Shown: in pieces, positions 15,815-18,060 of the stretch | Layout of the letters: every line of letters begins with the position of its first letter | Position numbering within the stretch: position 1 is the stretch's first letter | Assembly (NCBI GenBank): GCA_019752635.1 | Contig: JAIELX010000037.1 | Coordinates: forward strand, 1-64,000 | Origin: Candidatus Obscuribacterales bacterium | GTDB lineage: Bacteria; Cyanobacteriota; Vampirovibrionia; Obscuribacterales; Obscuribacteraceae | Length of the DNA: 64,000 bases | Reading direction: 5' to 3' | Notes under the pieces: model-generated | What the model was told of the DNA's origin: nothing | The model's database searches: none | The model's input: the letters and a program-made list of their open reading frames with translations, nothing else | Translations under genes and position numbers: made by a program

Positions 15815-16078
15815 ATGCCTTCAGAAAGAGGCCCCGGTTACCACCTCAACGCGATTGCCAAAGGGGAACTCGGGGAACTCAGCAAACTCGACGAAGAACT
15901 CGCCGAGCTTCACGACGCCGCCGCTCAGGGCGTCAAGATCATGGAGCTGGTCGAACTGTCCGATCTTTACGGCGCGATGCGGCTGTACCTGGAGCGTCAT
16001 CATCCGGGGACGACTATGGCAGACCTGGAGAAGATGAACGACGTGACGCGGAGGGCTTTCCTCAATGGTTACCGCTAA
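15815..16078 (+). CDS. MazG-like nucleotide pyrophosphohydrolase fragment protein
   Basis: An 87-aa all-helical protein resembling the short MazG-like proteins of large phages. KGELGELSKLDEELAELHDA (residues about 15-34) carries the EExxE-type metal-binding helix, and VELSDLYGAMRLYLERHHPG (about 45-64) carries the second acidic helix. The end, MADLEKMNDVTRRAFLNGYR, is also phage-like. Such proteins hydrolyse non-canonical or alarmone nucleotides or are catalytically weak relatives. The ATG at 15815 follows TTTTGGAG. The next gene starts inside its last codons (14-bp overlap), so the two are coupled. Confidence 0.82.
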   Translation: MPSERGPGYHLNAIAKGELGELSKLDEELAELHDAAAQGVKIMELVELSDLYGAMRLYLERHHPGTTMADLEKMNDVTRRAFLNGYR

Positions 16079-16634
16079 CCTCGAGGCCGGTCGCATCGAT
16101 TACGGGCTGATTGGCGCAGCCGTAAGCTTCTACGCGGCGCGCGGTTATGCGTACGTCGAGGTCCCGTGGTTCGTTACTGCGCCGGCGTTCGACGTGACTT
16201 GTCCGCCCGGTGTTCGCACTTTTGACACCTATGCTGGACGATTGGTTGCTTCCGGCGAGCAGAGTTTTCTACAGATGCTCGCGGATGGCAAGCTTCCTCC
16301 GGGGCGGTATATGTGCGTCACCCCGTGCTTTCGAGACGAACCGCAGTACGATGATCTGCGCAAGATGTACTTCCTGAAGGTTGAGCTGATCGATACGGCA
16401 CAACTTAATCATGAAGCCTTGCTCGCCGACGCGCTGGCGTTCTTCTCGCAGTACGTCCCATGCAGAGCGGAAGATATGGGCGACAGCACCAAGGACATTG
16501 TCACCGTCAACGGTTGCGTTGAGTTGGGATCTTACGGCACGCGCAATCATGCGCTGACCGGAGCCTGGTCGTACGGCACCGGATGCGCTGAACCGCGCCT
16601 GTCCGCCGCTATCAAGCGCGAAGTGAAGAGTTAA
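16065..16634 (+). CDS. Class II aminoacyl-tRNA-synthetase-like core protein
   Basis: A 189-aa protein resembling an isolated class II synthetase catalytic core. VPWFVTAPAF (33-42) mimics the motif 1 region, SGEQSFLQML (63-72) the SPQ-LQ strand, VTPCFRDEP (85-93) matches motif 2 (FRxE), and GCAEPRLSAAI near 174-184 resembles motif 3 (GxGxxxR). There is no anticodon-binding domain. Paralogues of this sort can aminoacylate or adenylate proteins or small molecules (for example AsnA-, PoxA- or HisZ-like roles); which applies is unknown. It overlaps the MazG-like gene by 14 bp. A strong terminator follows. Confidence 0.75.
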   Translation: MVTANLEAGRIDYGLIGAAVSFYAARGYAYVEVPWFVTAPAFDVTCPPGVRTFDTYAGRLVASGEQSFLQMLADGKLPPGRYMCVTPCFRDEPQYDDLRKMYFLKVELIDTAQLNHEALLADALAFFSQYVPCRAEDMGDSTKDIVTVNGCVELGSYGTRNHALTGAWSYGTGCAEPRLSAAIKREVKS

Positions 16635-16752: not shown

Positions 16753-16881
16753 GTTCTCCGGCAGTCCCGGAGGAATTGACTGATGTCCAATTAGGGTTTT
16801 TGCTGTAGACGATCGCCGGCGGGCAATCGAAGATAAGTAGATAGTCCGCACATCCAATTGACTTCGATAACAGAGGTTCTT

Positions 16882-18060
16882 ATGTTCTACCGTCGCCTGG
16901 TGCTATTGGCTCTAACCGCGGGGCTCATCTCTGTTCCGCAAGTATCAGCGCAGAACTATGCCCACTCAGCCGGGCGTCGTGCTGATTTCTCCAAGCTTGC
17001 CATTGAAACTCCGTTAGAAAAATTGATTTCGCGATCGAATCGAGGTGTTGTTTCCGGTTCGCCGGCACTGCCACTGTCGCCGTCTATGGCGAATCTTTCA
17101 GAACCAGCTGCTGACGCCGCTGAGAACCGAATCATTAACAGTCGGGTCTGGCAGTCTTCGTTTGCGCGCCAGCGTAAGCAGAAAGGGGCTTCATCCGGGA
17201 GTGTCGAGTTATCGACTCGCAATGTGTTACAGGATACCGGTGCCCGTAACAGTGATACCAGAGCCGGTGTCAAGGTCGCCCCCGGAGAAGTAGCATGGCA
17301 GCCGGATTTTGATACCGCATGTAAGCGCGCTTCCGAAAGTGGAAAGCCTGTTCTGCTGTTCCAGATGATGGGTAAGTTGGATGATGAGTTCTGCTGAACG
17401 AATGCCAGATTGGCGAGAACCGTGTTGTTCTCAAACTCTCAACTAGCTTCATTCATCAGTGACTCGTTCGAGCCGTGCTGGCAATCTGTACGTGATGTTC
17501 CTGTAATTACGGTCGACTTCGGCGACGGCAAGATCATCAAGCGAACACTGCATGGCAACATCGCCACTTATGTTTGTTTACCGAATGGAACAGTTGTAGA
17601 TATTCTGCCGGGAATTTATTCTGCCGCCGAATACCAACGACGCTTAGGTGAACTGCTGGTGGTGGCAAATAGACAACCTGATGCGGTCGCTCTTGTTGGT
17701 TATCACCGCGAAAAGGCGGCGCCGACACCGAAGCCGTCCGCCTTTTACGGGCGCCCGGACATGCGTAAATCTATCATTGAAAGTCCTGTGGAAAAGCTGC
17801 TGACCACGGACGCCTCGATGGCTCCGACTGTACGCGGTGAGCGCACTCTCGTTCTTGCAGAGGACGTCGTTTTAAACGAAAACATCCGCAGAAAACAGAT
17901 TCACGAGAAGCTGGCGCAGTGGCCCGGTGTGCGACCGTCCGATGTGTGTAAATGGTTGTACAAAGAAGTGTTGCACGCGGACCTCGATGATCCGTATCTG
18001 GGCCTTGGTCAGTCGCTTTTCGCTACGTATCCGTTCCGGAGTGGTGAACGAGTCAATTAA
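16882..18060 (+). CDS. Secreted thioredoxin-like protein with in-frame TGA: candidate selenoprotein
   Basis: Two open frames (16882-17394 and 17398-18060) lie in the same register and are split only by TGA at 17395-17397. Read through, they give 392 residues with a signal peptide (cleavage near VSA-Q, residue 24), a linker, and a thioredoxin-like domain: KPVLLFQMMG then DEFC-U-TNAR (Cys 171, TGA residue 172), TVLFSNSQLASFI, VPVITVDFGDG and ATYVCLPNGTVVDILPGIY. TGA therefore falls next to the redox Cys position. GAGAAC-CGTGTT-GTTCTC (17415-17432) forms a hairpin whose loop begins 23 nt after the TGA with G as second base, as expected for a bacterial SECIS. The alternative is a nonsense mutation. 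Related EKL-type motifs (ETPLEKLI, ESPVEKLL) flank the domain. ATG at 16882 follows AGAGG. Confidence 0.72.
17395..17432 (+). promoter_or_regulatory. Candidate bacterial SECIS element
   Basis: TGA at 17395-17397 is followed by a 6-bp perfect stem (17415-17420 / 17427-17432) with the 6-nt loop CGTGTT. Loop size, G in the first two loop bases and the 23-nt distance fit the published bSECIS rules. Confidence 0.6.

Follow-up and report, generated by a model that had tools for sequence, protein, structure and literature searches.

An in-frame UGA almost certainly read as selenocysteine in an uncatalogued family of thioredoxin-like proteins of Obscuribacterales and Planctomycetota

The gene and its reading frame

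Does the TGA codon that interrupts the ORF at 16,882–18,060 end a gene, or is it read as selenocysteine (Sec)? The ORF lies on contig JAIELX010000037.1 of a Candidatus Obscuribacterales genome, of which positions 1 to 64,000 were analysed (the window). The first-pass annotation had described two same-register frames separated by TGA alone, directly after a Cys codon, and coding for a further 220 codons. Both points hold: the ORF begins with the ATG at 16,882, its sole in-frame interruption is the TGA at 17,395–17,397 (codon 172), which follows DEFC, and the frame then stays open for 220 codons to the TAA at 18,058–18,060. The residues around codon 172 read ...DDEFC-U-TNARLARTVLFS...; as in bacterial selenoprotein genes, the in-frame UGA lies at a redox-type site with coding sequence on both sides. 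The apparent stop is almost certainly read as Sec, and the product is one of a family of exported thioredoxin-like selenoproteins that the catalogues lack and that is widespread in the relatives of the host and in Planctomycetota. The features of the locus are as follows.

16,872–16,876, plus strand: AGAGG, a Shine-Dalgarno-like sequence located 5 nt before the ATG at 16,882
16,882–18,060, plus strand: whole selenoprotein gene, 392 residues including Sec, with homology on either side of the TGA, closed by the TAA
16,882–16,950, plus strand: putative signal peptide, residues 1–23 (MFYRRLVLLALTAGLISVPQVSA), with Arg-Arg, a hydrophobic core and a VSA-type end
16,984–17,031, plus strand: linker motif, copy 1, DFSKLAIETPLEKLIS, recurring in homologues
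17,275–17,736, plus strand: predicted thioredoxin-fold domain (AlphaFold, Foldseek)
17,395–17,397, plus strand: TGA codon 172, almost certainly read as Sec to judge from the homologues, at the first-Cys position of CxxC
17,415–17,432, plus strand: bSECIS hairpin, stem 17,415–17,420/17,427–17,432, loop CGUGUU at 17,421–17,426, supported by pairing, covariation and codon bias
17,758–17,805, plus strand: linker motif, copy 2, DMRKSIIESPVEKLLT, recurring in homologues
17,809–18,021, plus strand: C-terminal helical domain, conserved in homologues, ending with DDPYLGL

The AGAGG sequence supports the ATG at 16,882 as the start. From its N terminus onward the protein comprises a signal-like sequence, a disordered linker, the thioredoxin-like domain and the helical C-terminal domain; its export is suggested by the N-terminal sequence. 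The linker motif, D-x-S/R-K-x-x-I-E-x-P-x-x-x-L, recurs across the linkers of subfamily 1, with many copies in homologue L040, and the DDPYLGL domain is also found, with no recognisable thioredoxin part, in another frame of the same genome (L025, C8:30005-30205). Upstream, at 16,065–16,634 of the window, lies an ORF of 189 aa that bears a weak signature of class II aminoacyl-tRNA synthetases (PF00152, E 4.5e-4) and is too short for such an enzyme. Apart from the gene and the frames antisense to it, comparison of gene neighbourhoods revealed nothing conserved, and no pointer to a substrate.

Conservation of the TGA codon

A scan of the genome contigs with the single sequence gave no match, while an alignment-based scan did, and the family was found to count six copies in the host genome, the gene at 16,882–18,060 and five paralogues, all with TGA at the same site. 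Two of the paralogues are close (49–50% identical) and three are distant, carrying xTU-SAG. Among 194 relatives searched, 108 matches were found in 39 genomes, with exactly one TGA in 104 of them and TAA or TAG in none. The four matches devoid of TGA are a Cys form, a form in which Glu takes the place of Sec, a partial match that lacks this part, and an ordinary thioredoxin with WCGFC; the last fixes the register, so that Sec corresponds to the first Cys of CxxC and Ala175 to the second. The named homologues come from Candidatus Obscuribacterales and Planctomycetota, and of 294 Planctomycetota genomes searched 72 match. Three of the latter (G247, G203, and G318) have eight to nine matches each, nearly all with one TGA, which suggests still larger expansions and further subfamilies. 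In homologue L075 (G040:C1:533900-535500) the Sec site is occupied by Glu (GDC-E-IAGQ), the selenol having apparently been lost while the domain persists.

The alignment of homologues at position 172, proposed in the first-pass annotation as a check, gives TGA or, in ten cases (nine Planctomycetota homologues and one relative), Cys exactly at the Sec position, and the Sec/Cys column is invariant in an alignment of 37 sequences. The nine planctomycete Cys forms read xSC-ANSRFFRTVLYA, as against CU-ANGRFMRTVLYA in the Sec forms. The residue before Sec is Cys in 38 Sec forms, Thr in 34, and Leu in one, and Ser occupies this place in nine of the ten Cys forms. Judged from the aligned sequences, it is the Sec/Cys site that the family conserves, the preceding Cys being dispensable; as it varies between Cys, Thr, and Ser, this Cys was rejected as a diagnostic residue. 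The earlier proposal of an exported Cys-Sec redox protein is strongly supported as regards the selenoprotein, but the Cys-Sec pair, present in the gene at 16,882–18,060, describes that gene and not the family, in which Sec is preceded by Cys or Thr and, in the main Cys clade, Cys by Ser.

The bSECIS hairpin

According to the published rules, a bSECIS element has a loop of 3–9 nt, a stem of 4–16 bp, a G in one of the first two loop positions and a spacing of 16–37 nt (PMC13188914). The hairpin found here has a stem of six perfect base pairs, GAGAAC (17,415–17,420) with GUUCUC (17,427–17,432), and a 6-nt loop with G as its second base; it begins at the 18th nucleotide after the TGA, and the distance from the TGA to the loop is 23 nt. 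Its geometry therefore conforms to the rules, and all the measurements reported for it in the first-pass annotation were reproduced. The minimum free energy of the hairpin by itself, -6.9 kcal/mol, is slightly weaker than the guideline of at most -7.5 kcal/mol (PMC13188914), and reaches -11.3 kcal/mol for 17,398–17,440 with the adjoining stem. In a single-sequence test over 61 nt the fold is not significant (z = -0.89; 33 of 200 shuffles fold equally well), and an Rfam search over the region gave no match. The hairpin is thus unremarkable in isolation, and the case made from the sequence of this locus needed outside evidence; its significance comes from comparison only, namely from its recurrence across dozens of homologues at the corresponding place, from covariation and from a bias in Arg codons.

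The position of the hairpin is common to both subfamilies, with the stem shifted by one or two nucleotides in a few members (e.g., L026 and L120). Over 39 divergent members pairing holds in 95.2% of cells, and both partners have changed in five of the six pairs, giving stem variants such as GAGAAC/GUUCUC, GAGAGC/GCUCUC, GCGUAC/GUACGC, and GAGAAG/CUUCUC. Cells with a double change number 22 against 5.7 expected, a value reached in none of 500 shuffles and well above that of slid controls, with the proviso that relatedness inflates such counts. In the ten Cys forms the hairpin is degraded, pairing at its place falling to 58.3%. The Arg codon within the stem is AGA or AGG in 55 of 56 members, compared with ca. 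25% AGR over the same ORFs, and in seven of nine planctomycete ORFs AGR makes up just 3–12% of Arg codons. These comparisons indicate that the hairpin is a feature conserved at the RNA level. A covariance model run over the 9.2-Mb host genome finds six strong sites, which are the six family genes, the next having E = 0.57; since all six were used in training the model, this shows that the genome has no other site of this hairpin class and is not an independent discovery.

Selenocysteine machinery and co-occurrence

The genes needed for Sec insertion, which the first-pass annotation had suggested looking for, are all present in the host genome and score above the curated cut-offs: tRNA-Sec (71.9 bits; anticodon tca by ARAGORN), selA (541 bits), selB (347 bits), and selD (363 bits). 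Of the 42 long ORFs in the window, 13 end with TGA; the codon thus keeps its ordinary function as a stop and has not been reassigned. Completeness of the fragmented draft assembly is 86% and contamination 6%, so that a foreign origin of the sel genes is conceivable; the relatives, however, show the same pattern. In the relatives from the family of the host with at least 85% completeness, selA is present in 25 of 25 carriers of the gene and absent from six of ten non-carriers (Fisher 1.3e-4). Eight carriers among the relatives have no detected selA, all of them 64–84% complete.

In a methionine sulfoxide reductase, MsrA, of the host genome the catalytic codon is TGA (AAGUFWGPED; L143, C32:4800-5900), and the genome also codes for a Cys paralogue (GAGCFWKVQ; L144, GCFW); the in-frame TGA at GUFW is likewise found in L145 and L146. 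Sec-containing MsrA is an established selenoprotein family (PMC13188914), in fold unrelated to the product of 16,882–18,060, and serves here as a positive control.

Among Planctomycetota hosts, selB exceeds the cut-off in 10 of 11. The lack of selA in genomes with Cys forms was considered as a test and rejected: selA is present in seven of nine Cys-form planctomycetes and in most of those sampled, which makes its absence uninformative in this group. In a tree of 83 domains, for which no root was inferred, Sec occurs in both main branches and Cys arises twice, each time inside Sec groups, the simplest reading of which is loss of Sec. The sequences of Obscuribacterales and Planctomycetota interleave on the tree, which suggests horizontal exchange.

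Fold and active site

The proposed thioredoxin-like domain is borne out by structure prediction: modelled alone, it is predicted with confidence to have the thioredoxin fold (AlphaFold pLDDT 95.2, pTM 0.87), which places it in the thioredoxin-fold superfamily. Sec directly precedes helix 42–51 of the model, the same place as the attacking Cys of thioredoxin. Most of the Foldseek matches are redox or disulfide proteins that are exported or secretory; the matches include 3f9u (PDB, E 3e-5), 4fyb, the DsbH-type 7tkv, AGR2/3, and the DsbD C-terminal domain; sequence searches of PDB gave no match. Two hallmarks of the classical dithiol thioredoxins are missing. There is no CxxC, the site reading U-TNA, U-SAG, U-ANG, etc., with Cys at U+3 in none of 83 members, and no cis-Pro opposite the active site, the segment GNIATYVC (register Ile227 or Ala228) being devoid of Pro. 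In subfamily 2 a Cys within the HCLPGYW region is invariant.

Relation to known families

Searches of NCBIfam (June 2026) and Pfam with both subfamilies found no convincing redox family, the nearest, at trace level, being VPGUxxT and DsbH/Thioredoxin_7. The VPGUxxT selenoproteins (NF041382, NF041383; Olavius symbiont OS_HP5) also have Sec at the first-Cys position of a thioredoxin-like domain, align without gaps from U onward and occur in some of the same Planctomycetota. Nevertheless, they keep Cys at U+3, where the present family has Ala, Gly, or Ser, while the latter lacks VPG (its motif is DEFCU) and the MsrA-like second domain, has a loop before U longer by six residues, and differs in the sequence of the hairpin region after the TGA. 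The product of 16,882–18,060 scores 17.7 bits with NF041382 (cut-off 275) and 11.5 bits with NF041383 (cut-off 350), well below membership of either. Three Planctomycetota proteins of VPGUxxT type 2 (L136, L139, and L140) have two in-frame TGAs, in VPG-U-xxC and in GM[TS]-U-YW of the MsrA-like C-terminal part, and are likely double selenoproteins.

The fold is shared with DsbH/Thioredox_DsbH (PF03190), Thioredoxin_7 (PF13899), and the DsbD C-terminal domain (Foldseek 3f9u, 7tkv, 2ju5, 6dnu), although profile matches to PF03190 and PF13899 are weak and confined to a minority of members, and the classical proteins use CxxC where the present family has [C/T]-U-x-x-[A/G] and no cis-Pro. AGRs are secretory thioredoxin-fold proteins with a CxxS site. 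AGR2/AGR3 and ERp18, also matched by Foldseek, resemble the present family in having a one-nucleophile site in the secretory pathway, but are eukaryotic and Cys-based, and no sequence similarity to them was found.

None of the 119 selenoprotein families in the 2026 inventory (PMC13188914) has the same motif; Haft and Tolstoy (2025) were covered through that table and NCBIfam. Planctomycetes are known to use Sec (PMC4807772), and the literature search found no paper linking Obscuribacter with selenocysteine. Set against these catalogues, though not against the individual planctomycete candidates of PMC4807772, the selenoprotein family appears to be new, while UGA-Sec recoding and the fold are known.

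Alternative interpretations

Were the TGA at 17,395–17,397 a real stop, a protein of 171 residues would be followed by a second gene starting from TTG at 17,410, and an ORF caller does yield two ORFs. Such a stop would, however, cut the predicted thioredoxin fold between the first strand and the active-site helix, and in the homologues the frame is open apart from a single TGA at this codon, those with Cys being continuous, which makes this reading very improbable. Sequencing error or a pseudogene, conceivable in a fragmented draft with some contamination, is less probable still: error had been named beforehand as a possible refutation, and it is excluded by the recurrence of the TGA across six paralogues and scores of independent assemblies, together with conservation at the codon and RNA levels. 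The conserved and evidently read-through UGA might instead stand for another residue, Trp or Cys, owing to a near-cognate or suppressor tRNA, or TGA might be reassigned in the lineage. This is as improbable as the real stop, given the full Sec machinery and its co-occurrence with the gene, the bSECIS-type hairpin, the MsrA with GUFW, the loss of the hairpin where Cys replaces Sec, and the use of TGA as a stop elsewhere.

A more serious alternative concerns function: the selenoprotein could bind a metal or metalloid or act as a scaffold instead of catalysing a redox reaction. The lack of a resolving Cys of CxxC and of Pro in the usual cis-Pro segment speaks in favour of this, and a vicinal Cys-Sec could, in principle, bind soft metals; on the other hand, the neighbour of Sec is Thr, not Cys, in close to half of the Sec forms, and the nearest folds are the redox or disulfide proteins DsbH, DsbD, and AGR. 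We consider a binding or scaffolding role unlikely, at about one chance in four.

Proposed function and significance

At the sequence level, comparative genomics demonstrates the conservation of the UGA, the hairpin, and the machinery, and on the same comparative grounds we regard it as very nearly certain that the gene with UGA 172 encodes a true selenoprotein. A redox-type role of unspecified nature is only slightly less secure, an extracytoplasmic selenol redox role is reasonably probable, and any given substrate would be doubtful. The product is best read as an exported single-selenol oxidoreductase. With the hairpin 18 nt downstream as the signal, SelB and Sec-tRNA-Sec would insert Sec at UGA 172 to give an exported protein of 392 residues. 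Sec would stand before the first thioredoxin helix in the place of the attacking Cys of CxxC, the second Cys being replaced by Ala, and its most likely target, outside the cytoplasm, would be a peroxide or some oxidised substrate. Resolution of the selenenyl intermediate may fall to the neighbouring Cys171 or to an outside thiol; in subfamily 2 the invariant Cys of the HCLPGYW region could be the resolving residue.

The wider picture, which we hold to be somewhat favoured, is that these exported selenoproteins form a large family of two branches that current catalogues lack. Sec would be the older state in it and Cys the derived one; its members would work with a lone or vicinal selenol, having neither CxxC nor cis-Pro; and it would have expanded to six or more copies per genome in the non-photosynthetic Cyanobacteriota of the order Obscuribacterales and been exchanged with Planctomycetota. 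Gene callers normally split each gene of this multi-copy family into two truncated ones, and many genomes of Planctomycetota and Obscuribacterales would have their gene models corrected. The family supplies an unusually uniform SECIS class, mostly with a CGUG loop, and natural controls in the Cys forms without the hairpin. It extends the bacterial selenoproteome, occurs in a cyanobacterial relative in which Sec use is little described, and makes the role of Sec in a thioredoxin fold without a resolving Cys testable.
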